From the NCBI RefSeq assembly GCF_006715305.1, contig NZ_VFMY01000001.1, positions 310,001 through 374,000 of the forward strand: a stretch of 64,000 nt of DNA, read 5' to 3'. This stretch comes from Arthrobacter sp. SLBN-100. GTDB taxonomy: Bacteria > Actinomycetota > Actinomycetes > Actinomycetales > Micrococcaceae. Numbering within the stretch: the first letter of the stretch is position 1; each line of letters begins with the position of its first letter. Positions 24,500 to 55,028 of the stretch are shown here, piece by piece. The position numbers and the translations under genes were made by a program. The notes below the pieces were generated by a model, which did no database searches, was not told the origin of the DNA, and was given only the letters and a program-made list of their open reading frames with translations.

Positions 24500-24574
24500 C
24501 CGAATTCCGCATGTTTCCGCGGGTTCCCAATGTTTGCAGGGGCTGGAATGCAGTTCGAGTCCCACCTTGGGCAC
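24500..24574 (+). repeat. tRNA-Leu 3'-end-like repeat, unit C (left boundary of sugar locus)
   Basis: CCGAATTCCGCATGTTTCCG through GGTTCCCAATGTTTGCAGGG to TTCGAGT, CCCAC and CTTGGGCAC. It is the only unit followed by an intact terminator hairpin, as a real tRNA gene would be. The 5' T-stem is unpaired, as in the other units. Confidence 0.6.
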
Positions 24575-24576
24575 GC

Positions 24577-24602
24577 AAACCCCCTCGTCAGAGGGGGTTT
24601 TT
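24577..24602 (+). terminator. Terminator hairpin after unit C
   Basis: AAACCCCCTC, loop GTCA, GAGGGGGTTT, followed by TT; 10 perfect pairs. Degraded versions follow units A, B and D. Confidence 0.7.
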
Positions 24603-24914
24603 GCTTTAGACGTGTGTACAAAGCTTGTGGTGGCGTCCCTCTGACGCTGGTGCGCGGGCTGGGCCTGGCCGCCGGGGCCCTGTTCAGGTGTGTGGGGTGG
24701 CGGGTTCAAGGTCCTGGCTGGTGCCCTCCGCCTGCTGTGTATGGGTGTGGGTGGTTCCTCGCTCCGGTTCTCTCGGGTTGCTCCTGGCTGGCCAACAACT
24801 GTTCATGGCTTTGGGGTGCGGGAACGACATGACGAAACTCTCCGGCGGGTAGAAGTTTTGGAAGGCCGCTTTGCGCGGGGGAGTTGTGGTCGTGGATTTG
24901 TCCTGCCAGGGGAG

Positions 24915-24933
24915 GTGTGGACAGCGTTCGCAG
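24915..24933. repeat. Palindrome P7 (degenerate)
   Basis: GTGTGGACAGCGTTCGCAG. The left arm is intact and the right arm decayed. The flanks TTTGTCCTGCCA and TCTGCTTTGTT match P4. Confidence 0.55.
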
Positions 24934-25190
24934 CTATTTCTGCTTTGTTGGACTGGCAGTTGGGCGGTATCCAGTGTCAGGTTCGGGTACATGAGTTCCT
25001 TGCTCCCGGCGTCAGAAAATGAAGAGACGAGCCCAGCCCGACACCCGGACACCCTTCACATCGCCGGGTGACGTCAGGTTGAAGCGTGGCCTAACTGGAC
25101 CATTTCGCTTGAGTTGGTTCCGGACCTGAGCCCAGTTACATAGGGGTCACGTTCGCCTGCGGACGTACCGGCAGTTGCCCTGTACGGCGC

Positions 25191-26234
25191 TCACTGGGAG
25201 GGGGAGCCTACTGGCCGCCGCCCTGGTGCGGCAGTGGATTCTCTTTCCAGAAGTTGGGGTCGGACCGTTGAGTCGGCAATGTCCTCCGCTCCGGACAGCT
25301 GCTGTTGGAGCAAACGGAAGGCTCTAACACCGAGGTCCTTGAAGTCGGGGGCGACTGTGCTCAGGGCGGGCCATGTGAACTCGCTGAAGGGCTGGTTGTC
25401 CCAACCGATGATGGATACTTGGTCGGGAACCGCTACTCCCTTTTCGGTGAGTGCGCGGAGGGCTGCGAGAGCGAGTCCGTCATTTGAGCAAAAGACAGCT
25501 GTTATTCCTGGATCGGCGGCGATCCGAAGTCCTTGCTCGTAGCCCGATCTCGGAGCGCGCGAGGCTTCGAGTACAGGGGGCGGCTTGATGCCGGCGTCAG
25601 AGAGTGCGTCGTGCCATCCTTGGTATCGCCCCGAGAATTGTGTCAGAGGATAAAGGCCCAGGTGGTGGACTGTTGAGTGTCCCAGGTCGAGCAGGTGTTG
25701 CGTCGCCTCGCGTCCGGCTGCGTACTCATCAATGAACGCGTAGGGAAAGCCGGGCTGGCCAGCTGAGAACCCGGATGCGGCGACAGTGGGTATGCTCTTC
25801 GGCAGTTGCTTGAGCACCTCTGCGCCTGAGGGATCGAAGTCGAGGACGATGATCCCCGCTAGCTGCTGTTGCAGGGCTATTTCGAGCGCGGCTTTCACGT
25901 CCGGGTCTTCCGAAGATTTCACGGCCGATATCACGACGGAGTAGCCTGCTCCCTGCGCCACCTCCTCTATGCCGGCCAGCGTATTGGCGTAGCCAAAGGT
26001 GGAAGTGCTGGCAGCAAAGATCGCGATCATCGATCGTTCGCCGCTCTTGAGCGCTCTGGCTAGTGAGCTCGGTCGGTAATTCAGCTCTTCGATTGCAGCC
26101 AGCACCCTCTGGCGTCGCTCCTCGCTGACCGGGATGTTTCCGGTTAAAACGCGCGAGACTGTTGGTACGGAGACACCCGCAAGACGGGCCACGTCGGCGA
26201 TCACCGGTTGGCGGGAATCTTTCGTAATTCTCAT
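25191..26234 (-). CDS. LacI family transcriptional regulator of the sugar locus
   Basis: A 347-aa LacI repressor. PVIADVARLAGVSVPTVSRV (residues about 10-29) is the HTH and SSLARALKSGERSMIAIFAA is the hinge. The effector domain has PYAFIDEYAAGREAT and PDQVSIIGWDNQP. It is transcribed leftward right after the DUF624 gene (40-bp gap), divergently from the ABC transporter operon. It probably binds the palindrome TGATATCGATATCA at 26991, 50644 and (one mismatch) 38592. This is inferred from proximity and because LacI proteins favour such central-CG palindromes. Confidence 0.93.
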   Translation of the reverse strand: MRITKDSRQPVIADVARLAGVSVPTVSRVLTGNIPVSEERRQRVLAAIEELNYRPSSLARALKSGERSMIAIFAASTSTFGYANTLAGIEEVAQGAGYSVVISAVKSSEDPDVKAALEIALQQQLAGIIVLDFDPSGAEVLKQLPKSIPTVAASGFSAGQPGFPYAFIDEYAAGREATQHLLDLGHSTVHHLGLYPLTQFSGRYQGWHDALSDAGIKPPPVLEASRAPRSGYEQGLRIAADPGITAVFCSNDGLALAALRALTEKGVAVPDQVSIIGWDNQPFSEFTWPALSTVAPDFKDLGVRAFRLLQQQLSGAEDIADSTVRPQLLERESTAAPGRRPVGSPSQ

Positions 26235-26274
26235 GTCAGTCCTTGCCGTTCCAATTTGAGCTCTATGGGGAAGG

Positions 26275-26907
26275 TTATCCCGTGGCGCCGTTCGGGGCGC
26301 CCATTTGTTGGCGGACGAGCAGCCAGGCGAGAAGGGCAGGAACTAATCCGCTGCCTAGCGGAATCAAAGTCGGCAGGCGGAAGGCCAGAAGCAGCCAGGT
26401 GCTAAAGACAACCACGCAGCCGGCAAGGGGCAGGGACTTAGCCAGCATCAAACTCCGAATAGATCTCACAAGTTCCCGGCCGGTGACGTCATCCTCTGCA
26501 AGCATGGACGCTGCCAACAGTGCCACGTACGCCGCGGCCCCGATGCCGCAAATCGGGATAATCACGCACAGGGCCAGCAGACCGGGAACCCCTGGCGTTG
26601 CAAGCCAGAAGAGTATGGAGAAGACAGCTGCTGCCATGGCTACCGGGACGGCCAGGCCCAAGTATCCAACACGGGGCCAGGCCCACGAGAACTCCCGAAA
26701 GAACGAGCGGGCCACCCCGGCGCGCTCTTCGATGACTGTTTTGCGCAGCGCACGCTGCAAGGCAACGGCCGCAGGAACCATAGTAAAAAGGGGAAGGCTC
26801 ACGAGCAGGAACAGGATCTGCAGCAGGAGGGTGTCCCCGATCGTTTCCAAAGCAGCCATGACCGCTACACTTCGGGGTTTGCGCCTTTGCTGTTCCATAA
26901 CTTCCAT
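26275..26907 (-). CDS. YesL/DUF624 family membrane protein
   Basis: A 210-aa protein with five to six hydrophobic helices (for example LLLQILFLLVSLPLFTMVPA, GYLGLAVPVAMAAAVF, PGLLALCVIIPICG). The pattern and the TMVPAAVALQRALRK segment match DUF624 (YesL of Bacillus subtilis), often encoded with sugar ABC transporters of pectin or uronide loci. Function is unknown. It is probably co-transcribed with the LacI gene downstream and shares the divergent promoter region with the solute-binding protein at 27059. Confidence 0.85.
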   Translation of the reverse strand: MEVMEQQRRKPRSVAVMAALETIGDTLLLQILFLLVSLPLFTMVPAAVALQRALRKTVIEERAGVARSFFREFSWAWPRVGYLGLAVPVAMAAAVFSILFWLATPGVPGLLALCVIIPICGIGAAAYVALLAASMLAEDDVTGRELVRSIRSLMLAKSLPLAGCVVVFSTWLLLAFRLPTLIPLGSGLVPALLAWLLVRQQMGAPNGATG

Positions 26908-26990
26908 TCACTGTCTGCGGCATCGTTGCTGGGGAGGGGAGCCGCTTCACATCTCATCATCCTATGAAATGAGGCTGTGACTTGCGCCTC

Positions 26991-27004
26991 TGATATCGAT
27001 ATCA
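26991..27004. promoter_or_regulatory. LacI-type operator TGATATCGATATCA (site 1)
   Basis: Perfect 14-bp palindrome in the divergent region between the DUF624-lacI pair and the ABC transporter operon, 55 bp before the solute-binding protein's ATG. Confidence 0.8.
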
Positions 27005-27058
27005 TACACTCGTTGCAGCGCCATCCAACGCCGGGTGGCTACATCAGGAGGATTTGAT

Positions 27059-28336
27059 ATGGCACGTCGACGTGCAGGATTTCTCGCGCTGGCAGTCGCT
27101 GGCACCCTGGCCCTTGGAGCCTGCGGCTCCGGCGGTACATCTACTGCCCCGGCTTCCAACCCCGGGGAAGTGACAGGGACTCTACGGGTGCTGGTTCCCA
27201 GCTACCCAGCCAGCAACGAGGGTAAAGCCGAGCTTGAGAAGGTAGTGGCATCCTTCAAGACGAAGTATCCGCAGGTAACTGTCGAGCCTGACTTTGCCAC
27301 CTTCGACACCCTCAACCAGAAAATCTCCACCTCCATTGCTGGAGGCCAGGGCTACGACGTCCTGGTGACCGGAATCGGCTGGGTGCCTCCGTTTGCCGCC
27401 AAGAACGTCTTTGAAGACCTTTCAACGTTTGGCGCCACCGCTGAATCGCTCGGGGAATCGACCAATCCCGCCCTCGTTCCGGCCTCAGAATACAAGGACA
27501 AGGTCTACGCCGTTCCGTTGATCGCCGGGCCCAAGCCTTTGGCTCTGCGGAAATCACTCTTCGAGAAGGCGGGTCTTGATCCATCAAAGCCGCCTACAAC
27601 CATGGCCGAAATCAAGACCGCTGCCGAGAAGCTCACCGTCAAAGATGCCGCTGGGAACATCACCCAGGCAGGCTTTGACTTCTGGGCCGCGCCGGGTGGC
27701 TACCGCCAGGACTTTGTTGCTCTGCTCGGTTCATTGGGCAAGCCCCTGTACAACACCGACGGCGAGGCAGAGTTCGCCGGTTCCGAGGGCGTTCAGACCC
27801 TTGAATGGATGAAGAGCATGGTGAACAACGTGCAGAAGTACGGCGCACAGAACGCCGCGAAATCCCCGCTGGTCAACACGGGCGAAGCTGCCATGGGATT
27901 CACCGGCGGATATATCGACTGCTCCGACAAGGGCGTAGGCAAGGCCGTCTGTGACGACCTCGTCTACTTCAACGTCGAAGACAAGGAAGGCTCCATGTTC
28001 ACCGGCGGCCAGCTTGCCTCCGTGGGTAAGAGCAGCAAGCTTAAGTCAGCGGCGTGGGACTTCATCCAGGAGCTCAGCAAGCCAGAGGCTGAAGCCGGCA
28101 TCGCGACTCTGAACTTCGCGGTACCAGCAGGCAAGGACGCCGCGGAGTCGCCGGTCGTAAAGTCCAACCCCGCGAGCACTTTCGTGGCCGCAAACCTCGA
28201 CGACGCCAAGTTTGAGGGCGGAGCCGCCAACTGGCTCGAATTGCGTGGGACGTTTGGAACAAGCCTTGACGATGCCCTTCTGGGCAAGAAGTCAGTCGAG
28301 GAAACGCTCAAGGCTCTGGAGCAGCAGTCAAAGTGA
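27059..28336 (+). CDS. ABC transporter extracellular sugar-binding lipoprotein
   Basis: A 425-aa protein with a lipoprotein signal peptide (RRRAGFLALAVAGTLALGAC, lipobox LGAC, lipidated Cys22). The family-1 solute-binding fold reads VASFKTKYPQVTVEPDFAT, then YDVLVTGIGWVPPFAAKNVFEDL and AAMGFTGGYIDC. AGGAGG at 27046-27051 is ideally placed before ATG 27059, so the in-frame GTG at 27035 is rejected. It heads an operon with two permeases, an isomerase, a dehydrogenase and a GH36 enzyme, and lies just after operator site 1. The ligand is probably an oligosaccharide. Confidence 0.94.
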   Translation: MARRRAGFLALAVAGTLALGACGSGGTSTAPASNPGEVTGTLRVLVPSYPASNEGKAELEKVVASFKTKYPQVTVEPDFATFDTLNQKISTSIAGGQGYDVLVTGIGWVPPFAAKNVFEDLSTFGATAESLGESTNPALVPASEYKDKVYAVPLIAGPKPLALRKSLFEKAGLDPSKPPTTMAEIKTAAEKLTVKDAAGNITQAGFDFWAAPGGYRQDFVALLGSLGKPLYNTDGEAEFAGSEGVQTLEWMKSMVNNVQKYGAQNAAKSPLVNTGEAAMGFTGGYIDCSDKGVGKAVCDDLVYFNVEDKEGSMFTGGQLASVGKSSKLKSAAWDFIQELSKPEAEAGIATLNFAVPAGKDAAESPVVKSNPASTFVAANLDDAKFEGGAANWLELRGTFGTSLDDALLGKKSVEETLKALEQQSK

Positions 28337-29289
28337 GCACTCTCAAAGAGACCAAACCAGCGGTGCGCGCGGCGGGGGCGGCTAACACCCGCGCCGCGCG
28401 CCCTGCGGGGCGGAAGTCACGTCTTACCCGCCAGCAGTCCCGCGCCGGCTGGCTGCTCCTGGCACCAGCCCTGCTGCATTCAACATTCTTTCTCGCCGTA
28501 CCGGCCCTCGCAGCAATCTTCCTGAGTTTCACGAACTACGATTTCTCTGGCGCCTGGCAGTTGATCGGCACGGAGAACTACGTGGAGCTGTTCCAGGACA
28601 CCCGGTTCCAAGCGGCGTTCCGCAACACCATCCTCTACACCCTCGCCGTGGTTCCCCTGTCCATGGGGTTGGCTTTGATCATCGCGTTGGGCCTGAACCA
28701 AAAGATCCGCGGTCTGGGGTTCTTCAGGACGGTCTATTACCTCCCCGTCGTGACCGCAACTGTGGCTGTCGCATCAGTGTGGCTGTGGATCTACCACCCT
28801 GGCGCAGGCCTTGCCAACGCTGTCGGAAGCCTGTTCGGACTCACCCGGTCCGAGTGGTTGAATGACCCCGCCACAGCCCTGCCCGCCTTGATCGCCGTCG
28901 GCATCTGGCAAGGACTTGGTGCAAAGATGATCGTCTATCTGGCCGCCCTTCAGGGCGTATCCAAGGAACTGTTGGAGGCCGCAAACCTGGACGGCGCCAA
29001 CCGCTGGCAGGTTTTCCGCAACGTGATCTGGCCAGCCTTGGGACCGGCCCATTACTTCGTGTTGATCACCGCAATCGTGCAGACCTTCCAGGTCTTCGAC
29101 CTCGTCTTCGTCATGACCAAGGGCGGTCCGGTCAATTCCACGACCGTGCTGACCTTCGACATCTACAACAACGCCTTCGAAGGCCTCCGGCTGGGCTATG
29201 CCTCGGCCGAAACGGTCATCATGCTCATACTCGTCGCTGCCTTCATATACCTGGGTGGTCGTTCGCAAAGGAAGAACCAGGATGGTTAA
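28333..29289 (+). CDS. ABC sugar transporter permease (MalF/UgpA type)
   Basis: A 318-aa protein with about six membrane helices after a charged N-terminal tail. The cytoplasmic coupling EAA loop is LLEAANLDGANRWQVFRNVIWPAL near residue 215. It begins with GTG overlapping the stop codon of the binding protein. It pairs with the permease encoded at 29282. The cognate ATPase is not in this operon, as is common in actinobacteria, where a shared MsiK-like ATPase energises many sugar importers (established for Streptomyces, inferred here). Confidence 0.94.
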   Translation: MSTLKETKPAVRAAGAANTRAARPAGRKSRLTRQQSRAGWLLLAPALLHSTFFLAVPALAAIFLSFTNYDFSGAWQLIGTENYVELFQDTRFQAAFRNTILYTLAVVPLSMGLALIIALGLNQKIRGLGFFRTVYYLPVVTATVAVASVWLWIYHPGAGLANAVGSLFGLTRSEWLNDPATALPALIAVGIWQGLGAKMIVYLAALQGVSKELLEAANLDGANRWQVFRNVIWPALGPAHYFVLITAIVQTFQVFDLVFVMTKGGPVNSTTVLTFDIYNNAFEGLRLGYASAETVIMLILVAAFIYLGGRSQRKNQDG

Positions 29290-30151
29290 GACGAAACTAA
29301 CGCCGGGGCGCGTTGTCCTCTACGTTGTACTCTCACTGGGCAGTTTGCTCATGGTTGGCCCGTTCATCTGGATGATCCTCACCGCGCTCAAATCAACCGG
29401 CGAGGTCGGAACGTTCACCTGGCTGCCCAAGGAATTCCACTGGTCCAACTTCGTGGAAGCCATGGACGCAGCGCCGTTCCTTCGGTATTTCTGGAACAGC
29501 CTGGTGCTCACGGTCGGGCAGACAGCCCTGACTTTGATCTTCTGCACCATGGCCGGATACGCCTTGGCAAAAGCTCCGATCCGCGGCGCGAAGGGGATCC
29601 TGAACTATTTCATCGCCTTGATGATGGTTCCCTTCCAGATCATTTTGGTGCCCATGTTCCTCCTGGTGAAGTCCATCCCGCTCTTCGGTGGGAACGACAT
29701 CTTTGGGATGGGCGGGACTGGGTGGCTCAACACCTGGTGGGCGCTGATCATTCCCTTGGCGATCGCACCGCTCTACACCTTCCTTGCCCGCCAGTTCTAC
29801 GTCACGCTTCCTTCCGAACTGGCGGATGCAGCTCGTGTGGACGGCCTTGGAGAGTTCGGGATTTTCTTCCGCATCATGACGCCCCTGGTCAAGCCCGCTC
29901 TGGTCACCATCGGCGTCTTCCAGATAGAAGCGGCCTGGAACAGCTTCCTGTGGCCCCTCATCGTCACCAACTCGGATGAGCTCCGGCCCCTTCAGGTAGG
30001 GCTTGCTATCTTCTCGCAGGATCCGCTCAACGTGCAGTGGCCCTACCTTATGGCCGGCGCCACGCTTGCCACGCTGCCCATGATCATCCTGTTCATCTTT
30101 GCCCAGAAACGCTTCGTTGAGGGCATGGCCAGCGCAGGCCTCAAGGGCTGA
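29282..30151 (+). CDS. ABC sugar transporter permease (MalG/UgpE type)
   Basis: A 289-aa protein with six predicted membrane helices and the EAA loop LADAARVDGLGEFGIFFRIMTPLVKPAL near residue 185. The ATG at 29282 overlaps the previous stop codon by 8 bases. Upstream in-frame codons lie inside the preceding gene and are not family-like. It forms the heterodimeric channel with the MalF-type partner. Confidence 0.94.
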   Translation: MVKTKLTPGRVVLYVVLSLGSLLMVGPFIWMILTALKSTGEVGTFTWLPKEFHWSNFVEAMDAAPFLRYFWNSLVLTVGQTALTLIFCTMAGYALAKAPIRGAKGILNYFIALMMVPFQIILVPMFLLVKSIPLFGGNDIFGMGGTGWLNTWWALIIPLAIAPLYTFLARQFYVTLPSELADAARVDGLGEFGIFFRIMTPLVKPALVTIGVFQIEAAWNSFLWPLIVTNSDELRPLQVGLAIFSQDPLNVQWPYLMAGATLATLPMIILFIFAQKRFVEGMASAGLKG

Positions 30152-30174
30152 CCCTTTCAAACAAGAGGAACAAC

Positions 30175-31023
30175 ATGATCACGCCGTCAGCCTCAACGCT
30201 GGGCGCACCCGGAATACCCCTGGACGTCGTCCTGGCCTGGCTGCAACAACACCGCATCCCTGGCATCGAACTCCGGCTCGCTGCAGGGGAAATCGCCGAC
30301 CCACACATGGGCGTACCGGCCCGGGACGACCTCCGACGCCAGATTGAGGCAGCAGGAGTGCAGGTAACGGCCATCGCGAGCTACGTGAAGGTAGCGGCCC
30401 CGGGGTCCGATGAAGCCGTCCTCGCCGGGCTCACCCAGGCAATCGCCTTCGCTAGAGACCTCGGGGCACCGATGGTCCGGGTATTCCCCGGAGCAGATAC
30501 CGGACCTGCCGCCTTCACCGACGTCCCGCCCCTGGTGGAATCCCGTGAAGAAGTGGATGACCGGGCGGCAGGGAGGCTCAGTGCCGTCACCTCATACGCC
30601 GCGGACCTCGGCGTCCTGCCGGTGCTGGAGACTCACGATTCGCATCCCACAGGCAAGGACATCGCCGGGATCCTCCACCGCGTGGACGGACCAGTGGGGG
30701 TGGTATGGGATGTGCTGCATCCCTGGCGTGTAGGCGAACAGCTGGAAGAGACGTGGAAAACCCTCGCGCCCTGGCTGGCGACCGGTCGCGGCTGCGTCCA
30801 GATCAAGGACGCCGACATGCCCGCCAGCAGTACACCGCTGCCCATCGGCAAGGGTTCCTTGCCGACCGAGGAGTTTGGCCAGTTGCTGGTCCGCCACGGT
30901 TACTGCGGCCCGGTCACTCTTGAGTGGGAAAAAGCCTGGTATCCGCAGGCCGCTCAACTGGACGTCGCACTAGGGTCCGTCCGGGCATGGCTCGACAACC
31001 ATTGGGATGAGGACATCAATTGA
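30175..31023 (+). CDS. Sugar phosphate isomerase/epimerase (xylose-isomerase-like TIM barrel)
   Basis: A 282-aa protein of the AP-endonuclease-2/xylose-isomerase-like barrel superfamily. Metal-ligand strands are VLPVLETHDSHPTGKD, VGVVWDVLHPW, RGCVQIKDADM and GPVTLEWEKAWYP. Substrates in this family vary (inosose, hydroxypyruvate, sugar phosphates). GAGGAA precedes ATG 30175. It overlaps the dehydrogenase gene by 4 bases, so the two probably act on successive intermediates. Confidence 0.9.
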   Translation: MITPSASTLGAPGIPLDVVLAWLQQHRIPGIELRLAAGEIADPHMGVPARDDLRRQIEAAGVQVTAIASYVKVAAPGSDEAVLAGLTQAIAFARDLGAPMVRVFPGADTGPAAFTDVPPLVESREEVDDRAAGRLSAVTSYAADLGVLPVLETHDSHPTGKDIAGILHRVDGPVGVVWDVLHPWRVGEQLEETWKTLAPWLATGRGCVQIKDADMPASSTPLPIGKGSLPTEEFGQLLVRHGYCGPVTLEWEKAWYPQAAQLDVALGSVRAWLDNHWDEDIN

Positions 31024-32069
31024 ATGCAGCACTGCACAGCACCGCCGTGCCAAAAACGCCTCGGTTCAGGCCCAAAGTGGCCCTGGCGATGCAGGACGCT
31101 GACCTGCGGGACGCCCTTTTTTCCAAACGTCTCCGCAGCCGGCTCGAATCGATCTGTGACTGCGACTTCAGCCTGGTCATTCAGGACTTCAATGCCACGC
31201 CCGATGAGGCCATCGGAGATGTTGATGTTCTCCTCACGGGCTGGTTCTCTCCCCGCGTCGACGCAACCGTTCTTGCCCGTATGCCCCGGCTCAGGCTTAT
31301 TGCCCACGCAGGTGGAAGCGTCAAGGGCCATGTCCTGCCTGAATGCTGGGAACGGGGCATCACAGTGACAACGGCTGCAGAGGCCAACGCATTGCCGGTG
31401 GCCGAGTACACCCTTGGCCTCATCCTCCTGGCGGGAAAGTCAACAATTGCTGCCAGCCACCTCTACACGCAGCGCCAAACCAAAATTGACCGGGAACTGG
31501 AGTTCCCGGACACGGGCAACTACGAGCGGGCCATCGGGATCATCGGGGCGTCCACCATCGGAAGGCTGGTTCTCGAGCGCCTGCGGCCCTTCGATTTTGA
31601 TGTCACCGTGTATGACCCCACGATCAGCGACGCCGAGGCGCTGCGGCTGGGGGCCCGCCGGGTAAGCCTGGACGAGCTTATGAGCTGCAGTGACATCGTG
31701 TCTCTGCATGCGCCGGTTCTGCCAGAAACCCTTAACATGATCGGCCCTGCCCAGCTTGCCGCTATGAAGGACGGCTCGACACTCATCAACACCGCCCGGG
31801 GGGAACTTGTGGACCACAACGCACTGATCCATGAGCTGGAATCAGGCCGGCTGAATGCTTTCCTGGACGTGACCAGCCCGGAACCATTGCCCGCCGGCCA
31901 TCCGTTGTACACCCTTCCCAACGTACTGCTGACTCCCCATATTGCCGGTTCGATGGGTACCGAGCTGCACCGGCTGGCGGCCTACGCAATCGACGAAATC
32001 GAACGCTACGCCACAGCAGCCCACCAGCGGTTCCCTGTCGGCCTGGCCGACCTGGTGAGGATGGCATAA
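31020..32069 (+). CDS. D-2-hydroxyacid dehydrogenase family oxidoreductase
   Basis: A 349-aa NAD-dependent enzyme. The Rossmann motif is AIGIIGASTIGRLVLERL, the catalytic Arg is in INTARGELVDH, the Glu in LDVTSPEPLP, and the His in LTPHIAGSMG, the complete D-2-hydroxyacid dehydrogenase triad. Translation starts at TTG 31020 coupled to the upstream stop codon; the next in-frame ATG (31089) would remove about 23 residues before the first strand. Beside a sugar isomerase and glycosidases it may reduce or oxidise a sugar-acid intermediate. Confidence 0.9.
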   Translation: MNAALHSTAVPKTPRFRPKVALAMQDADLRDALFSKRLRSRLESICDCDFSLVIQDFNATPDEAIGDVDVLLTGWFSPRVDATVLARMPRLRLIAHAGGSVKGHVLPECWERGITVTTAAEANALPVAEYTLGLILLAGKSTIAASHLYTQRQTKIDRELEFPDTGNYERAIGIIGASTIGRLVLERLRPFDFDVTVYDPTISDAEALRLGARRVSLDELMSCSDIVSLHAPVLPETLNMIGPAQLAAMKDGSTLINTARGELVDHNALIHELESGRLNAFLDVTSPEPLPAGHPLYTLPNVLLTPHIAGSMGTELHRLAAYAIDEIERYATAAHQRFPVGLADLVRMA

Positions 32070-32071
32070 CA

Positions 32072-34168: not shown

Positions 34169-34275
34169 GGGCCTACCCCTCGGTCACGCCTGAGCGGTGA
34201 AACCCAATGGTTGACGACTTCCTCCCACCGCTCATCCCTCTGAGCATGCGGTTCCTGATTTCGAGAGAAGAAGCT

Positions 34276-36530: not shown

Positions 36531-36604
36531 CAATACCGTAATTTCCCGTTCCGCAAACATTGTCGAAAATTTAGTCCGCCGCGTTGAAGCGGCATGGAGG
36601 TCCT

Positions 36605-38533: not shown

Positions 38534-38538
38534 CACTT

Positions 38539-38582
38539 AAAGCAGGCCGGTGTGACTTGAACAACACGCCGGCCTGCTTTAC
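38539..38582 (+). terminator. Terminator after the GH127 gene
   Basis: AAAGCAGGCCGG and CCGGCCTGCTTT, 12 perfect pairs, 18-base loop. It closes the first sugar operon before operator site 2. Confidence 0.75.
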
Positions 38583-42312: not shown

Positions 42313-42437
42313 ACCCTTTGTATCCGGTGTGCGGGAACGGTCTCGAAGAACGCCGTTCCCGCACACCCGGCCACCTGACGGCGACGCGGGCCAGCACCTA
42401 TCCACTCCAACCGCATTATCAGTCCCGAAAGGACCCC

Positions 42438-46364: not shown

Positions 46365-46408
46365 GACTTGGGCGAACACCAAGGGACGTGATCTTCCTAG
46401 AATGCCGG

Positions 46409-46453
46409 AAGGCCGGTGGAGATGGCTGATAATGCCATTTCCACCGGCCTTTT
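46409..46453 (+). terminator. Terminator after the 1308-aa gene
   Basis: AAGGCCGGTGGA pairs with TCCACCGGCCTT, extended by a further ATGG/CCAT, then TTTTG. Position and T-run fit the plus-strand operon end. Confidence 0.7.
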
Positions 46454-46483
46454 GTGCGCCGTGCCAGCTTTCAGTTCTGAAGG

Positions 46484-46520
46484 TTAGCTGAGGCGGGCCT
46501 TCTCGGGCCGCCTCAGCTAA
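46484..46520. terminator. Perfect 13-bp hairpin between convergent genes
   Basis: TTAGCTGAGGCGG and CCGCCTCAGCTAA with an 11-base loop. It is placed to end transcription of the minus-strand heparinase-like gene. Confidence 0.65.
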
Positions 46521-46539
46521 TCCTTCCGCCTTCTTGGCC

Positions 46540-49500
46540 CTACGAGGCCTTCATGAGAATCAGAGCCTGATGAGCGCTGACGTTCACGGTGGTGCCGTTG
46601 ATGGAGCCGTTTTCTTCGGGGGTAGCGCTCGTCCAGGCTCCTGTCAGTCCGAGCTCGGTGCTAGCGGTGGCGTCCCCGCTGTTGAGGACAACCAGGGCGC
46701 GCTCTCCGTTGGAAGCGACAAGCTCGAACGCTTTGAGGGTCCCGGAGCCGGTCGCGCGTTCGATGGTCTCGATTGGCTTTGCGTCCTTCGCCCGTGGCTG
46801 CAGCAAGACCGTGTGGTCTGTTCCCGCGGGTTGGCCAAGCTGCAGCCACTGCTGGTTCTCCTGCGGCCAGTCACCGGAGACTTTGCCCTTGTCGAGGCCA
46901 ACCGAGGGCTGGGCCGATCCGAGGAGGTGAACATCCAGATCCACTCCCTGATAACCGTGGGCCGTGAGCAGACCGGGGGCCTGATCTACCGATGTGGTCA
47001 GCGTGTGCAGATTGAACCGGCTCGGTACGGAGGACTTGATGCGGTCCCAGACAAGGAATGCGCCGAAGCCACCCTTGAGCTGGATCATGTTGCGCTGGTA
47101 ATCACTAGCGCCCGGCGTGGCCCCACCGGTCTGGACCAGGTCGAGCTTGTCGGAGTAGTAGCGGACAGGAGTTTCCACAGACACGGCTGTGCCCTGCCAG
47201 GAACCGTCGGCTTGGAACTGGACAACGTTGTGGGCCGCGGCGCTGTTGAACCAGACGTTGTCACCGTTGAAGTAGCCTCCAACACCCGCGTCCAGGGCAA
47301 GCGGCACGGACTTGCCCCAGAGGGAGAAGCCGGTGCGGTCATCGTGGTTGTGGCCCAGCGTCCGGGGGGTGTTGGACATGATCAGGTAGTTCTCGTCGGC
47401 TGTTCCTACCTTGTCACGCAGGATGTCGTAACCGACGGTCTCCACTGCCGACGAGGACAGGGCCGGGTCTTTGGAGGGAAGGGCCGGGTCGGTGTTCAGC
47501 AGCGGCGGCAACGCCCATGGGTTGGCGCCGGTGTCGGCCATCGGTGACCCTGCCCGGTTCCAGGTCCACTGCATGGCGGCGGAAAGCTCTGGGTCGGAAT
47601 CCTTGTACAACGCGGCGTTCCAGCCGAGGATCCGGTAGGGCTTTTCGTTGTAGTCAGCGTCGCCGATGGCGGGCATCAGGACGGTTCCCGGCGCCTTGGT
47701 GTTGGTTGAATCGACGGGAGTCTGGATGTTCACGAGGAAGGAGAACATCTTCTTCAGCTTTGCGTCATTGACCAGGTCGGCCCCACCGGCCCGCTTGAGG
47801 GCCTGCGCAAACGGCACGAGCCTCACCAGCGGGGCGGCGTGGTAGCGGATGGTTTCGGGGAATGCCCCGTCTTCCCCGACGACTGTCTCCAGGGTCCATT
47901 CAACTTCGCCCTGGGCGTGGGCGCGGTACGTGGCCGATGAGGTCAGGTTCGGGAGGGCCATGCTGACGAGTCCGACGCCGATAGCCCGGTCAAGATTCCA
48001 GTTTGAGATCCTGCCTGCTTCGGTGGAGCGGTCGTAGTAGGTCAGGTTCATCTGGGTGTCCTGCATCCAGCCGAGCCGGTCGGTGAGCCAGGCGCGGTCG
48101 GTGGCGCTCATGGATTTGGAGTTGATGACAAGATCCAGGGCCTGGGCATAACCTCCCATGGCGCGGCCGAAGTGCACGGCCCCATAGCCGTCCTCACCGT
48201 TGGGCTTTCCACCCGTCGTAAGGGCGTAGTTCATACCCCAAATGGATTCACCAATGAGGTATTTGACTCCCAGGATCGCCTTTTGTGCTGCTTCTTCATT
48301 CCCTGTTACGAGGTACACGTTGGCGCTTGCCTGCGTTGCCTCAAACAGCGGGGAATCCCACCGGGTGTGTGTGTCCCAGTTGTAGGCAGGTGTCTTATAG
48401 GCTGCGCCGACTGGTGCCCCGGCGTCATTTGTGTATGAGACGCTCCATGTGAGGCCGGCACCTTCAATGAGTCCACGCTGGCTGATCGTTGCCCCAAGGG
48501 AATAGCGCGCCCCTGCTGTTGCCGGGAGGTCCTGGTTCAAGGTGACGGTGGCCTTGTCGGTGGGGGAAGCGCCGGTGTATTTGAGGGATGCGGCACCGGT
48601 TGCGGCCCATTCGCTGGTCTTGCTCACCTCAGCACCCGCCGTTGTCGCAGTCCAGGGGCTCACGCCTGAGCCGAAATCCTCGAAACTGTTGTCCGGAATT
48701 GTCACGGGCTGACCGTTGGCCAGGGAGGTGAGGGTGATGGCATCGACCATGGTCGAGCCTTTACCTTCGACGTCGAAGGACAGGCGCATCTTGGTGGCGC
48801 CGGCGGGGACCGTGTAGATGTTGCTTTGCCCCCGGTGTGGGTTGGCCAGGTACGCGGGGTCCTTTAGCTGTTCAACTGTCCATTTTTGGGACAGCGCGAG
48901 CTGGCGTTGGTACTCCTCGCCGACTACGCCTGTCTTGACGCGGTCCTGCAGAGCCTTGACCTCAGACTTTTCGAGCAGCAGTGACGGGCGGGCGGTTGTT
49001 GTGGCGTCCTGGTTGATGACGGTGCTGCGGATGAGGGAGATGTCGTCGAACCAGGCCTGGCCTTTGCCTGTGAGCCGAACGAATGCCCGTGCCTCGGTTG
49101 CTGCCGCGGGAGGGAAGCCCTGCAGGCCGCTGGCGTGCCATCCGGTAGCGCCGCTCACGGGTTGTGTCAGCTGTTCGCTCAGGGTGACGCCGTTGGCGTC
49201 CAGGTATTTCAGCCCGGCGGTGGCTGTGCCGTTGGCCAGGTCCGTCTTCACTCCGGCGGAGAAGTCGTAACCAGCAAGCCGTTCGATCGGGATGGGGGAG
49301 GACTCAAGAACGGATTGGTCGCCTTCCGATTTATTGATGAGAGTCAGGGAATTTTGCCCGGTTTGGGCTGTTCCGGAGTCCGTACCGGCTGTATTTCCCT
49401 CGGCAACGCCGGATACGGTGGTTTGCTTCGCGATGGTGATGTCATCAAACCACGCGGTCCCGCCGTTGTAGAGCCGGTAGTCGATTCGGACCGAGACGGC

Positions 49501-50562
49501 ACCTGCCGGTGCTGCCAAAACTGACTCAACATACGTCCAGTCCGAGGTGGACACACTGTTCTGGATGATTCTGTCACCGCCGACCGTTTGGCCGTTGGCG
49601 TTACGGAAAATCACCAAGGGCCGGATGTCACCCGGGGCTGCGTTTTGTCCTTTAATCCAAAATCCGAACTTGTAGGTGCCTGGAGAGATCGGGACATAGT
49701 TGACCTGCTGCCAGTCACCGATGCCGCCGGGGACGCCGTCAATGCGCAGTGATTTTGTGCCAGTGTGGGCAACCGCTTTGTCCCAGACCATCGTGGCTTT
49801 GGCTGCGGAGTAGTTAAACGTCTTCCAGTTTTCCGGGGTTGTTGTCCCTGATTCCGCTGACGGGTTCGGGACTGTAACAGGGGTCCATTGAACTGATGCC
49901 GGGGACCAGCCGGCGGGCGCCGTCTGGCCACTACCGGTAGCAGTTTCTGCGCCTCCATCAGGCACCAATTCCCGCCGCTGACGGACGTCGGGGGAGATGT
50001 CATCGACATCCACGGCCGCGGCTCCCAGAACGTGTATCGAGACCTGCACGTCCTCCGCGTCAGCTGGGGTGGCGGCTGTCAGGGACAGCTCGGACCAGGA
50101 CCCTGGCTTCATCCCGGTAGGGGCGGAAACCTGCTGGCCTACTTCGTCGCCATTCGCCGCTGTGAACCGGACCTGAAGTTCAACCCTTGGTGCCCCTTCC
50201 GCTGGCCGCACCAGCGCACGGTAGTAAACAACGTCAGATGACTTCTTCAGCTTAACGGCAGGGGAGCTGAGCACCGTCGCGTCAGTCTCAGAGACTGAGT
50301 TGATTCTGGCACCTGATTTTCCCGTACGTGCCGAAGTCGTGCCAGTAGAGGCCGTCCCCGGTCCGCTCTGGCTCCAGCCCTCGGGCAGGGACGGCTGCGT
50401 TCCCTCCTCGAAGGTTGCTCCTGGGAACGAAAAACCTTGCGAGGTGTCGGTTGAAGGTGCCTGAGGAAATGCTGCGGCTGCGCCCCCGGCAGTCGCAGTC
50501 GCGACAAGCAGGGAAAGTGCGAGGGCAGCCCCCACCGGGCGGCAAATTGCTGGGTCTTTCAA
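46540..50562 (-). CDS. Secreted heparinase II/III-like polysaccharide lyase with N-terminal carbohydrate-binding modules
   Basis: A 1340-aa exported protein. TTG 50562 follows GAAGGGG and gives a Sec signal peptide (VGAALALSLLVATATAGGAAA). Residues about 50-560 contain several jelly-roll carbohydrate-binding-like domains (WKTFNYSAAKATMVWDKAVA, AWFDDITIAKQ, AWFDDISLIRS). An alpha/alpha-toroid follows (EDGYGAVHFGRAMGGYAQAL, RISNWNLDRAIGVGLVSMAL), then the heparinase II/III C-terminal sandwich with MSNTPRTLGHNHDDRTGFSL, the His/Asp-rich catalytic or metal strand. It should cleave a uronic-acid polymer outside the cell. The operator TGATATCGATATCA lies 82 bp upstream. Confidence 0.85.
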   Translation of the reverse strand: MKDPAICRPVGAALALSLLVATATAGGAAAAFPQAPSTDTSQGFSFPGATFEEGTQPSLPEGWSQSGPGTASTGTTSARTGKSGARINSVSETDATVLSSPAVKLKKSSDVVYYRALVRPAEGAPRVELQVRFTAANGDEVGQQVSAPTGMKPGSWSELSLTAATPADAEDVQVSIHVLGAAAVDVDDISPDVRQRRELVPDGGAETATGSGQTAPAGWSPASVQWTPVTVPNPSAESGTTTPENWKTFNYSAAKATMVWDKAVAHTGTKSLRIDGVPGGIGDWQQVNYVPISPGTYKFGFWIKGQNAAPGDIRPLVIFRNANGQTVGGDRIIQNSVSTSDWTYVESVLAAPAGAVSVRIDYRLYNGGTAWFDDITIAKQTTVSGVAEGNTAGTDSGTAQTGQNSLTLINKSEGDQSVLESSPIPIERLAGYDFSAGVKTDLANGTATAGLKYLDANGVTLSEQLTQPVSGATGWHASGLQGFPPAAATEARAFVRLTGKGQAWFDDISLIRSTVINQDATTTARPSLLLEKSEVKALQDRVKTGVVGEEYQRQLALSQKWTVEQLKDPAYLANPHRGQSNIYTVPAGATKMRLSFDVEGKGSTMVDAITLTSLANGQPVTIPDNSFEDFGSGVSPWTATTAGAEVSKTSEWAATGAASLKYTGASPTDKATVTLNQDLPATAGARYSLGATISQRGLIEGAGLTWSVSYTNDAGAPVGAAYKTPAYNWDTHTRWDSPLFEATQASANVYLVTGNEEAAQKAILGVKYLIGESIWGMNYALTTGGKPNGEDGYGAVHFGRAMGGYAQALDLVINSKSMSATDRAWLTDRLGWMQDTQMNLTYYDRSTEAGRISNWNLDRAIGVGLVSMALPNLTSSATYRAHAQGEVEWTLETVVGEDGAFPETIRYHAAPLVRLVPFAQALKRAGGADLVNDAKLKKMFSFLVNIQTPVDSTNTKAPGTVLMPAIGDADYNEKPYRILGWNAALYKDSDPELSAAMQWTWNRAGSPMADTGANPWALPPLLNTDPALPSKDPALSSSAVETVGYDILRDKVGTADENYLIMSNTPRTLGHNHDDRTGFSLWGKSVPLALDAGVGGYFNGDNVWFNSAAAHNVVQFQADGSWQGTAVSVETPVRYYSDKLDLVQTGGATPGASDYQRNMIQLKGGFGAFLVWDRIKSSVPSRFNLHTLTTSVDQAPGLLTAHGYQGVDLDVHLLGSAQPSVGLDKGKVSGDWPQENQQWLQLGQPAGTDHTVLLQPRAKDAKPIETIERATGSGTLKAFELVASNGERALVVLNSGDATASTELGLTGAWTSATPEENGSINGTTVNVSAHQALILMKAS

Positions 50563-50643
50563 AGGTGAACCCCTTCGTTCGTCATATTCGAAGCAGTAAT
50601 TGGGCAGGGGCAAAGGCAGCAGCCAATACGAGACCTGTATCAC

Positions 50644-50657
50644 TGATATCGATATCA
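50644..50657. promoter_or_regulatory. LacI-type operator TGATATCGATATCA (site 3)
   Basis: Perfect palindrome identical to site 1, upstream of the minus-strand heparinase-like gene. Confidence 0.8.
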
Positions 50658-50697
50658 GACTAGGTGAACCGAGGGCTTCGCGCAATAGATCCTCGTT

Positions 50698-50723: not shown

Positions 50724-50930
50724 ATGGCTATGAATCTGCGTGTCCCCGAGGATCTGGATCGTCGTTTGGACAAGCTCGCGGCCGAGGAACACACCTCGAA
50801 ATCGGCGTTGCTGCTCCAAGGTGCAGAGCTTGTACTGCAGCGACACCGTCGAAGTCGCGAGATCGGCGAAGGACTGGATTTCGTAATGAGCCATGATGCT
50901 GAGCTCTTGACGCGCCTTGAGGATGCGTGA
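50724..50930 (+). CDS. Ribbon-helix-helix antitoxin (orphaned copy)
   Basis: A 68-aa protein nearly identical to the antitoxin at 6868 (MAMNLRVPEDLDRRLDKLA start, HDAELLTRLEDA end). Its toxin gene overlaps at GTG 50927 but is truncated, so the antitoxin is intact and orphaned. It could still repress both TGGTAC-N7-GTACCA operators or neutralise the Doc encoded at 7071. It sits only 67 bp from the sugar-locus operator site 3. Confidence 0.83.
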   Translation: MAMNLRVPEDLDRRLDKLAAEEHTSKSALLLQGAELVLQRHRRSREIGEGLDFVMSHDAELLTRLEDA

Positions 50931-51082: not shown

Positions 51083-51714
51083 TTCCTGAGTAAGTGTGAC
51101 CTAATGCTGCTTCCGGTGCTGGTACGCACAATGCTGATGAAGTCACTTTCACAGTCGCGGATCCTGGACGTGCAGCCTCACCGGTGGTCTGGCGGGTCAC
51201 GTTTAGAGCGCCGTTGAAAAAGGTGGTTCCTCCTCCCCGGCAGGCTTTCGCGCTATGTCTTAGCAGTTTTCGATTCCTCCCATCACGACATATTGAAGAC
51301 TGGATTCCGGGCGACGCTACGACAGCCCCATCGCCTTGGTCAAAAACTGGCTGGCATGGCCATACGTATCATTCGCTGTGGTTCCAGCCTGGCCATTAAC
51401 GACTTGTAGAGTGGCGGATTTGCATCGGCGGCGTCCCGGGTGTGATTTTCTGCACCGCGAAGTAGGTGCGGTACGTGGCCTTGAGATGGGGCTCCAGTTC
51501 GCCCGGCCGGGTCGGCCAACGAAACAAGTTCTTGGTGTTCGGGCACATCACGCGTCTGCCCGCCAACGCGGCAGATGCGCGCGAGCCCGATGGCCCGGCC
51601 GCGTCTCCGGTTGGCGATCGCCTGGTCCAGGTACCCACCGTAGGACTTATCCGATACGAGAAACGGCTCATCTCCGATGGTGCTGTCGATCAGGCCCGAC
51701 AGAGCGTCCAGCAC
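51083..51714. other. Rearranged interval with no assignable gene
   Basis: Between the truncated Doc and the IS3 remnant. A minus-strand frame around 51400-51720 (for example DSTIGDEPFLVSDKSYGGYL) has some coding character but overlaps a plus-strand frame, and I cannot place either in a family. It is probably debris from several insertions. Confidence 0.4.
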
Positions 51715-52195
51715 GCCGACGGTGTTCCCGTGGTAGTGACCTGCAGGGTGTTGAAGTTCAGCAAGCAAGGCTATTACCGGTGGAAGGCCAGTCCGGTGAC
51801 CGAACGGGACTGGATCGATGCGCACCTCGTCAATGCCGCCCGGGACATCCATGCCGAGGACCCTGCGTTCGGGTACCGGTTCATCGCCGACGAACTCCCC
51901 GGGAAGGGCATCACGTCGGGTGAAAACAGGGTCCAGCGCCTGTGCGGGGACCACGCCATCTGGCCGGTGTTCTCGAAGAAGCCGGTCCTGAACCGCAGAC
52001 CTGCACCGCCGGTCCACGATGACCTGGTGGAGTGGGAATTCAACGCCGCGGCGCCGAACGCGCTGTGGCTGACGGGCATTACCGAGCACCCGGCTGCCGA
52101 GGGGAAGCTCTACCTCTGCGCTGTTAAGGAGGTCTATTCCGGAAGGATTGTCGGGTACTCGATGGACTCCCGGATGAAGTCCTCGCTTGCCGTCC
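51715..52195 (+). pseudogene. IS3-family transposase OrfB remnant
   Basis: Reads VTCRVLKFSKQGYYRWKASP, then AARDIHAEDPAFGYRFIADE, PNALWLTGITEHPAAEGKLY and VKEVYSGRIVGYSMDSRMKS, the conserved OrfB/IntB segment with the first Asp of the DDE triad region altered (LTGITEH where LTDITEH is usual). The frame then diverges after SLAV, so the HSDRGSQ segment and the catalytic Glu are missing. OrfA is absent. Inactive. Confidence 0.8.
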
Positions 52196-52301
52196 GGGGG
52201 TCACCGCGGGGGGTGGGAAGCCGCCCGCTGACGGTCGCTGGAGCTCTATGGGCGGATAAGACGTGAGGGCTGCTGGCTGCCCCGGCTGCTTCCCGTCCGG
52301 A

Positions 52302-54167
52302 CTAAGGGGCCATGATGACGAAGCCGGCGGCCGGGACGGCGATGCTGATGGCCCTGCCGTTTCGAGCCTCGACAGCTGTCTCGGAGCCCTGCTGGTTCTG
52401 GTCGATCGAGTAAATGCACCGGAACTTGTCGCCGGCAGAATGCAGCCCGCCGTCGATGGTTACCCATACCGTCCTCGTCGCTACAAGATCGGTGTTGAAG
52501 GCACACACCACCTCGCGGCTGGACATGATGCGGCTCCAGGCCACGACGGACGTCATGCGTCCATCGCCAATACGGTTCGGATACCAGAAGTTGGCACCGT
52601 CCTCTGAAATGGGCCTGAAGTACTGGCGGCCACGCCGGAGCGCAAGGTCGTTCCGGCGAAGGTCCAGAACCCGGGCAAGTTGACTGTAGGTGTCGGTCGA
52701 CTCGTCAAAGAAGTGACGGTCCTTGCTGCGGAACGAGCCGAAGCCGCCGCCGAACATCGTTTCGCGGATGTAGCGGTCTGCCTTGTGGTCGTTGCCTGGA
52801 TCCAGGTTCACGTTAGTCGGGAACTTGCCGTTGAAAAGCTGTTCGCTTCCGTAATAGATGCAGGGGATGCCAATCGTTGTTGCGTTCATGGCCAGGACGG
52901 CTAGCTCCAGCGCCTTGCCCTCCGGGTCCGATGCGAAACGGGCCTTGAAGCTCCGGCCCATGCGGACCAGGTCGTGGTCGTCGAAGGACGTGACGACGTG
53001 CTTGCGGAACCAGGTGTGTGATGCCTTGCCGACCTGATAGGAGTTGCGGAAAAGCTTGAAGTAGTCGTCGGGGTTTCCCCATCCCTTGACTGCATCCACC
53101 ATTCTTCCCTGCACATCGGCAAGGCCGAGGGCAGCGTCGAGTCCCGTCTCGTCACGGGTCGCAATGGCCTCTCCACGGGGGCCGGTGATCTCGCCGACAA
53201 GGAAGAAGGACTCCTTGCCGATGGTCTGTGTGAACTCATGAACGGCGGACGCGAAGTATCGCGTAGCCCCAGCATCCATGTGCTTCACGGTATCGACGCG
53301 GAAGCCGTCTACGTCGGCGTAGGCGATCCAGTACTGGTATGCCTCGGTGAGGACTTGAAATGCGGGGGAGGGCTGGTAGCCGTCGACAGGACCGGTTCCC
53401 TGTTGGATGTCCTTCAGTCCTTCAAAGTCACCCTCTGTCGTCTCTGGCCTGGCGTCCCAGTTCATGATCTTTCCCTTGCAGGTGAAGACACCGTTGGCCT
53501 GGAGTTCACTTGGCCAGACGGCGCTGGCGGGGTTATTCGGATCAACAGGGGAAGGGAAGGGAAGAGTGGGGCTGCCGTTCGAATCTCTCCACCCGGCCAC
53601 GGGGAACGTGCTGCCGTTCCATCCCGGTTCCGGATCGTCTGCGGCGTACTGGAAGACGTCGGCGGTGTGGTTGAGGATCACATCGAGGATGACGTACAGC
53701 CCCTCCGCGTGCGCGGCGGACACCAGGTCCTTGAAGTCCTTGTCCGTGCCGAAGTGCGGATCGACCTCGAGGAAGTTCTGCGTTCCGTAACCGTGGTAGT
53801 CGTCGACACCTTGCCGCTGCCGGAGCACTGGGCTGATCCACAGCGCGGTCACACCCAGTCGTTTTAGGTAGCCGATCTTAGTCGCTATCCCTTTCAGGTT
53901 TCCGCCGAGCCACTGCGTACCGGCGGTTTCCCATGTTGCGACGTCGGCCGGGTTCGCGACTGCGTTGTTGGCGTCGCCGGCAGTGAACAGGGGCGTCTGG
54001 CCTTGGACGACCTGTCCGGATGCGTCTTTGTATCCGTCTTCCTTGCCGTCGGAGAACCTGTCAATGAGGAGGAAGTAGATGACCTGGTCGGACCAGTCGT
54101 GGGGAGAGGGGTGGAAGTTGTTCTGGTTCAGGAGATTCGCCCAAGGGATGGCTCGGATGGAAAGCAT
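52302..54167 (-). CDS. Alpha-amylase family protein, glycoside hydrolase family 13
   Basis: A 621-aa GH13 enzyme. VIYFLLIDRFSDG starts the barrel, GVTALWISPVL follows, region I is DVILNHTADV, region II GFRVDTVKHMD holds the nucleophile Asp, region III FFLVGEITGP the acid/base Glu, and region IV TSFDDHDLVR the third Asp. The C-terminal beta domain ends SIAVPAAGFVIMAP. No signal peptide, so intracellular. AAGGA precedes ATG 54167. It acts on alpha-glucans or related glucosides. It is the last gene inside the segment bounded by units C and D and has no visible copy of the TGATATCGATATCA operator. Confidence 0.93.
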   Translation of the reverse strand: MLSIRAIPWANLLNQNNFHPSPHDWSDQVIYFLLIDRFSDGKEDGYKDASGQVVQGQTPLFTAGDANNAVANPADVATWETAGTQWLGGNLKGIATKIGYLKRLGVTALWISPVLRQRQGVDDYHGYGTQNFLEVDPHFGTDKDFKDLVSAAHAEGLYVILDVILNHTADVFQYAADDPEPGWNGSTFPVAGWRDSNGSPTLPFPSPVDPNNPASAVWPSELQANGVFTCKGKIMNWDARPETTEGDFEGLKDIQQGTGPVDGYQPSPAFQVLTEAYQYWIAYADVDGFRVDTVKHMDAGATRYFASAVHEFTQTIGKESFFLVGEITGPRGEAIATRDETGLDAALGLADVQGRMVDAVKGWGNPDDYFKLFRNSYQVGKASHTWFRKHVVTSFDDHDLVRMGRSFKARFASDPEGKALELAVLAMNATTIGIPCIYYGSEQLFNGKFPTNVNLDPGNDHKADRYIRETMFGGGFGSFRSKDRHFFDESTDTYSQLARVLDLRRNDLALRRGRQYFRPISEDGANFWYPNRIGDGRMTSVVAWSRIMSSREVVCAFNTDLVATRTVWVTIDGGLHSAGDKFRCIYSIDQNQQGSETAVEARNGRAISIAVPAAGFVIMAP

Positions 54168-54896
54168 AGGGTCCTTCTTTCGCTTGCTGACTTGAGGGGC
54201 TTGGAGGATGAAGCTTTTTCTCGCTCTCTTCCGGATGGGCCCGGAAGCCGGGCTCGTATGAATCGTGAAGAGGACGCGATGAAGGCCCACCACCGGTCGC
54301 CAGTTGCGATGAGACGCGCCCTTGGTGTGGCATCCGACTGCACGATGAGCCCAGTATGAGGACTTGGGCCGCGGGGCGGAAGAGGCCGCCGGCTTGGATT
54401 TCCGTGGGCGCTGAACCTCGCGGGCCACGGTCAGGAATAACCTCTCTTACAGCCGCAGGCGCGGCGGCAGTTTCGCGTCCCCAGCACTGCCAGTCCCGGC
54501 ACCGAGGGCTCGGCCGCGGGACAGCTCGGGCCTGACCGGCGCCGGCTGCGGTGCGGTCTCCCCGGCCCGGTCCATCCGTGTCCCGATCAGTGCCGTCCTG
54601 TCCCTGGTGCCCATCCAATGAGGCGTGGCGGCAAGCAGCGGCGCCTGGTCCATCACGGCGGTGGCGTCGAAGGTCTCCCAGGGTGTGAAGGCGTAGTCGC
54701 CAAGCAAAAGCCCAGGCGCTGGCGTCTCGGAAAGGCGTCTCACAGGGGAGTGCGGAGGACCTCTCAAGCGAGGATGCCTCGAGCACCTGCACACTGCTGG
54801 TGCTGCAGGAGTGAAATAAACGGACGGTCTCACGCACCTCAAACGCTAGGCGTGCAGTTGCTGTTGAACAGTGAGCGGCAAGGGACCGAACTGAGG

Positions 54897-54915
54897 GTGT
54901 GGACATTGTCCACAC
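54897..54915. repeat. Palindrome P8 (perfect consensus)
   Basis: GTGTGGACATTGTCCACAC, perfect 9-bp arms around one base. Confidence 0.85.
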
Positions 54916-54952
54916 TTTCACCTTTGGATCGGGCTTTACAGCCCTCGGACTG

Positions 54953-55028
54953 CTTCGGATTCCGCATGTTTTCGGGGTTCCCGGTGTTTGCAAGGCCGGG
55001 AATGCAGTTCGAGTCCCACCTCGGGCAC
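54953..55028 (+). repeat. tRNA-Leu 3'-end-like repeat, unit D (right boundary of sugar locus)
   Basis: CTTCGGATTCCGCATGTTTT through GGTTCCCGGTGTTTGCAAGG to TTCGAGT, CCCAC and CTCGGGCAC. Same orientation as unit C, 30.4 kb away. Confidence 0.6.

Follow-up and report, generated by a model that had tools for sequence, protein, structure and literature searches.

Probable attachment-site junctions of a tandem genomic-island array behind tRNA-Leu(CAA) bracket a sugar locus in Arthrobacter sp. SLBN-100

In the genome of Arthrobacter sp. SLBN-100, two repeats resembling part of a tRNA-Leu gene stand in the same orientation on either side of a large carbohydrate locus, which raises the question of whether they are the borders of an integrated element or sites of another kind. 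We analyzed a stretch of 64,000 nucleotides around them (the window, to which positions refer unless a contig is named) together with related genomes; the present genome is designated G000 and its contig 1 G000:C1, and other G numbers denote relatives of the genus. Based on sequence comparison, we propose that genomic islands form a tandem array behind tRNA-Leu(CAA) and that both repeats are attachment-site junctions within it, a reading that includes an integrase mechanism and the compartment between the two repeats, and to which we assign a probability of about 85%.

Repeat units and the array behind tRNA-Leu(CAA)

Four cores of the repeat are found on the plus strand of the window, at 4048 (unit A), 7601 (B), 24554 (C) and 55008 (D). 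A reading made from the letters of the window (hereafter the sequence-only reading) had described direct repeats at 24500-24574 and 54953-55028, and these are indeed units C and D, with cores 30,454 bp apart. A chance origin is ruled out, as a 22-nt probe allowing up to 3 mismatches retrieved 4 sites in the window and 0 across 100 shuffles. Each unit consists of the last 20 nt of tRNA-Leu(CAA) (TTCGAGTCCCACCTCGGGCA), from which the core of C deviates by 1 base, fused to a conserved upstream arm of about 112 bp. The name tRNA-Leu-like, first applied to the whole repeat, thus holds for these 20 nt and not for the remainder, which is the conserved arm. No tRNA was detected in the window by ARAGORN or by Rfam (gathering thresholds), and these two scans rule out that the units are full tRNAs or members of a known RNA family.

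By analogy with phage attachment sites, the upstream and downstream sides of the core are labeled P and P', and the sites they carry are putative arm sites. The P arm opens with a palindrome (GTGTNNACA-N-TGTNNACAC), located at 3936-3954 in unit A (3936..4067, core 4048-4067), at 7489-7507 and in the GTGTTGACA form in unit B (7489..7620, core 7601-7620), at 24441-24459 in unit C (24441..24573, core 24554-24573) and at 54897-54915 in unit D (54897..55027, core 55008-55027), C and D forming the left and right boundaries of the C-D compartment. On the P' side, a hairpin is followed by a half-site about 57 bp from the core start. The P' arm of C (24574..25046, plus strand) harbors a terminator-like hairpin, a GTGTGTACA half-site 58 bp past the core start and then a stretch that is alike in the G108 unit at 3056077; the P' arms of B and C are similar to the flank of the intact tRNA-Leu(CAA). 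In its GTGTGGACA form, the palindrome occurs with up to 2 mismatches at 9 places of this genome, 8 of them in the window (4 at units) and one at a unit located at 1.816 Mb. In the segment 9248-11781, a P-arm remnant lacking a core, made of a palindrome-like site and GGATTCCGCATGTT, was also noticed immediately upstream of a gene for a TOTE-type primase-helicase.

The intact tRNA-Leu(CAA) is encoded outside the window at G000:C1:246039-246121, 68 kb to the left of A and on the same strand. Genome-wide, an 18-nt probe with up to 2 mismatches identified units A-D, a site at 1,816,019 (minus strand, 1 mismatch) and one at 20,778 (2 mismatches), and a search with the 20-nt core also matched tRNA-Leu(UAA) at 4.3 Mb with 2 mismatches. 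Five of the six cores found at this tolerance, counting tRNA-Leu(CAA) and excluding tRNA-Leu(UAA), lie within 119 kb, and the scattering of units over the genome that would have spoken against an island is not seen. The array begins outside the window with the intact tRNA, and its islands are separated by equally oriented repeats of the tRNA 3' end, C and D being two among five consecutive sites. The attL/attR geometry proposed by the sequence-only reading is retained as tRNA-Leu junctions of one island hotspot at which cassettes recombine across genomes, on a scale larger than the single element then considered.

Several further observations concern the surroundings of the units. The complete unit at G000:C1:1816012-1816145 (minus strand) is far from the tRNA; the 1.66 kb to its left resembles cassette ends in G113 and G094, and its right flank departs from the family soon after the half-site. 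A Doc-like gene precedes unit A (3385-3719), without a recognized antitoxin. The interval between B and C carries a catabolic cluster (13088-23085) encoding an MFS transporter, amidohydrolases, an FMN dehydrogenase, a Rieske protein, an HpcH aldolase, a PTE family protein, a reductase and a GntR regulator, as well as a long stretch (11783-12354) about 94% alike to another one right of D (62716-63205). To the right of D, the flank varies as a mosaic among relatives, and its segment 61807-62564, which contains a small gene pair that looks toxin-antitoxin-like by eye, recurs in many genomes of the genus.

Sites, cassettes and integrases in the genus

A 132-nt probe made from unit D matched 202 of 206 genomes of the genus, few candidates being scored per genome so that these matches do not give copy numbers. 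According to our own count of the listing, the best E-value was at most 1e-9, beyond the tRNA end alone, in 179 of the 206 genomes, near 2-3e-4, the strength of the tRNA end alone, in 20, and between these classes in 3, with no match in 4. The exact 28-nt string covering the end of the P arm and the core was present in 84 stretches of named genomes, labeled Arthrobacter, Pseudarthrobacter, Paenarthrobacter and one Micrococcaceae MAG. Twenty genomes, including the present one, were picked mainly for few contigs and strong unit matches, a choice biased toward arrays, and all 20 encode an intact tRNA-Leu(CAA). The catalogue drawn from the fetched stretches holds 96 units, including the 1.816-Mb unit and one unit in G123, and is not exhaustive, some sites with 2 mismatches having been left out. 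All 94 units of the chosen genomes (a count without the latter two) follow the orientation of the tRNA strand, and G113 alone exhibits 14 units across 310 kb.

The anatomy of the units is largely conserved. Of 96 units, 89 have the palindrome at -110 to -113 and 7 lack it. The variable dinucleotide of the palindrome keeps the symmetry in 77 of these 89 (shuffles: mean 42.8, maximum 57) and, when identical palindromes are collapsed, in 36 of 46 (shuffles: mean 20.1, maximum 29), these palindromes deriving from related and not from independent sequences. The half-site pattern was recognized in the expected P' stretch of 70/96 units and 17/20 tRNAs, being missing by pattern in 26 units. Among the 74 units whose palindrome is at exactly -112, the information content is high across the arm and near zero past the palindrome, and arms of different genomes are about 70% identical.

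To locate the ends of shared DNA, the 3-kb flanks of all 116 catalogued sites were compared across genomes. Matches were scored at 90% identity or more over at least 600 bp, with cassette DNA on one side, tRNA-tRNA pairs excluded, and with an allowed end from 400 bp short of the site up to 2.5 kb past it. In every one of the 29 scored site pairs, the shared cassette DNA terminates within the att region (ends -118 to +421); these are pairs of related sequences and not independent events. Ten of them end at the 20-nt core (0 to +22), the others within the family-conserved arms. Another 23 pairs, collinear on both sides, were unscored, 21 of them being tRNA-tRNA pairs among integrase-bearing genomes. 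Cassettes are found beside different neighbors in different genomes. A good example is the A-B cassette (4068..7488), which is 96-99% identical in G153, where it occupies the first position directly behind the tRNA, and which in G048 lies between two units, minus its left ~0.95 kb, and terminates at a unit. It ends, just before unit B, with an intact pair of genes on the plus strand (6868..7439) for an RHH antitoxin (6868-7074) and a Fic/Doc protein (7071-7439). Precise exchange at the repeats was observed for A-B and not for C-D, whose outer ends both failed to match another catalogued site over 600 bp. Overall, there is strong support for site-specific recombination in the array.

In 7 of the 20 chosen genomes, the tRNA is immediately followed by a tyrosine integrase ORF of the same orientation. 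In five of these, the longest ORF (376 aa) begins 87-88 bp past the tRNA; in G094 and G150 the longest ORF begins further upstream, the similarity starting at the same place as in the other five. Similarly, the integrase starts 86-90 bp from the tRNA in five more carriers (G004, G144, G020, G183 and G085). The assignment relies on Pfam (Phage_integrase) and PHROGs (integrase). A comparison with proteins of known structure gave 15 matches at E<=1, among which are integrases and tyrosine recombinases. Complete or partial relatives (E<=1e-90) are present in 84 of 206 genomes. A tyrosine recombinase, for which the sequence-only reading advised a search, is found behind the tRNA of some relatives, but no relative of this integrase at E<=1e-90 was found in the present genome, which is one of the 13 chosen genomes devoid of an integrase at the tRNA, and PF00589 had no match from 51.6 kb to 1.06 Mb of its contig 1. 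In G015 and G054, partial integrase copies adjoin interior units, which would fit an outward displacement and decay of older islands that carried an integrase. Some neighbors of the integrase in relatives look like parts of conjugative elements by eye. In addition, G173:C2, a 298-kb contig, carries a 65%-identical integrase relative at 249117-250232, about 0.8 kb from one end of a sugar block and with no tRNA core nearby.

The C-D compartment and its sugar block

The sugar block extends over 25069..50694, limits that derive from the stretch common to relatives, and starts 23 bp past the conserved P' stretch of C. According to Pfam, it encodes a LacI regulator, a solute-binding protein, permeases, an isomerase-type barrel, a 2-hydroxyacid dehydrogenase, a melibiase, a mannose-6-P isomerase type protein, a BadF-type kinase, a GH127 enzyme and a CBM/heparinase-type lyase. 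A few bases past its right end comes the region of an RHH antitoxin (50724..50930, plus strand), which belongs to a cassette-end RHH/Doc pair whose Doc gene is cut at about 51044. It is followed by a transposase-type ORF, probably a remnant (51466..52266, plus strand; HTH_21 above and rve below the Pfam cut-off), and by a GH13 alpha-amylase-type ORF of 708 aa (52302..54428, minus strand; Pfam). Overlapping the transposase-type ORF, about 480 bp (51714-52194) recur at 80-90% identity in many genomes of the genus. No conjugation genes were found among the main C-D ORFs scanned with Pfam.

This content corrects the earlier picture of a compartment holding every sugar gene and nothing else complete except an orphaned antitoxin. 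The GH13 and transposase-type ORFs are also inside, and genes for a GH3 glycosidase (108-1997) and a LacI regulator (2129-3163) are found outside, to the left of A. The antitoxin does stand next to a cut Doc gene, and since a Doc-like ORF precedes 15 of the 96 units, it is better described as the remnant of a recurrent cassette-end module.

The sugar block recurs near the tRNA or a unit in three other genomes. In G173, the chromosomal copy begins about 15 kb past tRNA-Leu and matches 25069-34985, 35559-38555 and 46338-50690 at 88-90% identity, and a P'-like stretch begins 16 bp past it. Parts of the block are found 17 kb after a unit in G108 and, in G123, stop about 0.9 kb short of a unit core. 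G173:C2 harbors a further copy, 92% identical over 25.5 kb (25215-50694), and no att core was found on that contig at up to 4 mismatches. A single unit at the same place in relatives lacking the locus, which the sequence-only reading had suggested looking for, was not encountered: none of the 12 genomes inspected (10 with a match of tRNA strength only, plus G100 and G174) has a clean empty C-D site, and in all 12 the tRNA is present with diverse DNA behind it. When these genomes were compared with 204 kb of G000, cargo was common only to G173, G050 sharing P' arms and G184 a toxin-antitoxin-like stretch.

With attL/attR-type sites at C and D and no integrase of its own, which an ICE or IME would encode, C-D would correspond to a CIME. 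It is probably a grounded cis-mobilizable island, because no close integrase relative was found in the present genome, and its present mobility is doubtful, no cognate integrase having been found in the genome. The att boundaries of C-D are established. The earlier idea of one integrated sugar element is plausible, as is the entry of C-D as a single element, set against the missing empty-site relative, the missing integrase relative and the att-free copy of the block on another contig.

Proposed mechanism, rival explanations and known systems

The array, the common strand of its units, their fixed geometry, the position of the integrase in relatives and the reassortment at the site are observed. 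In the mechanism that we propose, the tyrosine integrase that relatives encode immediately downstream of the tRNA would act on islands in circular form, recombining them at the T-loop core (TTCGAGT...GGGCA). Each insertion would rebuild the tRNA 3' end and shift the older copy downstream, producing the layout tRNA-core-P'[island]P-core-P'[island]P-core. Probable arm-type sites for the integrase or for an accessory factor are the palindrome, about 112 bp to the left of the core, and the half-site, about 57 bp to the right of the core start. In this scheme, C-D (24554-55007) would represent one integrase-less compartment, a cis-mobilizable island with a sugar-use block, which may have entered as one unit and might still be movable if an integrase were supplied. 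Counting against this reading are the 13 of 20 genomes without an integrase at the tRNA, the failure to find an integrase relative at E<=1e-90 in the present genome, the lack of a clean empty C-D site, the 1.816-Mb unit away from the tRNA, the palindrome missing in 7/96 and the half-site in 26/96 units, and the sugar block without att site on G173:C2.

The most serious rival, to which we would give somewhat less than even odds, concerns the cargo: the sugar block may be independent of the att sites. Homologous or illegitimate recombination, with a plasmid as one possible source, may have placed it in a cassette frame that was already there, and C and D would then bracket it only through its landing inside a compartment. 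The position of its right end is almost the same here and on both G173 contigs (50690-50694) and falls inside C-D, not at D, the G173:C2 copy lacks a core at up to 4 mismatches, and the distance from block to unit differs between G108 and G123. Against this rival, the block lies again near the tRNA or a unit on the G173 chromosome and in G108 and G123, and its left end here adjoins the P' arm of C.

Two other rivals concern the units themselves. That they are mere repeats for homologous recombination, without any site-specific enzyme, is improbable: arms about 70% identical between genomes do offer some homology and the present genome has no close integrase relative, but the palindrome, core and half-site keep a fixed spacing, the integrase keeps a fixed place by the tRNA, and junctions end at a 20-nt core, a length too short for ordinary homologous exchange. 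It is still harder to regard the units as decayed tRNA genes or small-RNA genes. Their 3' 20 nt match the tRNA and a terminator-like hairpin follows some of them, but ARAGORN and Rfam had no match in the window, the sequence upstream of the core follows a different conserved arm and not the tRNA, and cargo switches at the units. As for the source of the sites, an attP from a known phage or plasmid was rejected, since unit D yielded only a 26-base tRNA-Leu match in two records of one phage and nothing among plasmid records; a scan of viral contigs for the core and one form of the P' start found nothing.

Arrays of islands linked to a tRNA are a known kind of genome hotspot and are common in this group of soil bacteria. 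The array described here would explain how the Arthrobacter group collects large catabolic loci at one chromosomal address, and its named integrase, core, arms and cassettes form a concrete recombination system open to testing. The recombinase behind an island that has no integrase is often difficult to identify, and this family of sites makes such an assignment possible. In integrons, a recombinase encoded beside the primary site is followed by an array of recombinase-less cassettes, some with toxin-antitoxin genes. The cassettes here are island-sized and the sites tRNA-derived. By this analogy, we tentatively raise the possibility, which we consider rather unlikely at present, of an island-scale integron-like platform, where the integrase beside tRNA-Leu(CAA) would act both in cis and in trans on a pool of cassettes (<1 kb to >100 kb) that spans the genus and consists mostly of cassettes without integrase. 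Each cassette would have a P' half-site at one end and, at the other, a P palindrome of drifting but symmetric sequence, some with Doc addiction genes at the right end, and the range of cassettes open to a given integrase may depend on the site variant.

A literature search, mostly without subscription papers, gave no title on such an array in Arthrobacter. The closest known case is that of the Dehalococcoides ssrA islands. They follow a single RNA gene in tandem, have its 3' ~20 bp as their borders, are inserted at the T-loop and show a conserved sequence just upstream of the repeat, some islands having no integration genes (PMC3146451). There, the target is tmRNA, the enzyme a serine recombinase and the integration module is found in 16/31 islands (PMC3146451), whereas here the target is tRNA-Leu, the proposed enzyme a tyrosine integrase and a palindrome lies 112 bp from the core. 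Among actinobacteria, Frankia and Streptomyces AICEs occur in tandem in one tRNA gene, as pairs with their own integrases (PMC3218068), whereas the arrays described here are long and mostly without integrase. In ICE/IME/CIME accretion, decayed elements keep attL and attR and accrete with later arrivals at the same site (PMC5704250); here, up to 14 units per array (G113) are found, and units are present in most genomes of the genus. In additive flexible genomic islands, a tRNA is the target of cassettes that leave repeats of its end and vary between strains (PMC4119200, PMC7771536, PMC10872708); for the present array, the position of the integrase, the putative arm sites and the exact junctions can be described in addition. 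CIME accretion (PMC5704250) and additive tRNA islands (PMC4119200, PMC7771536, PMC10872708) are together the general kind to which the array belongs.
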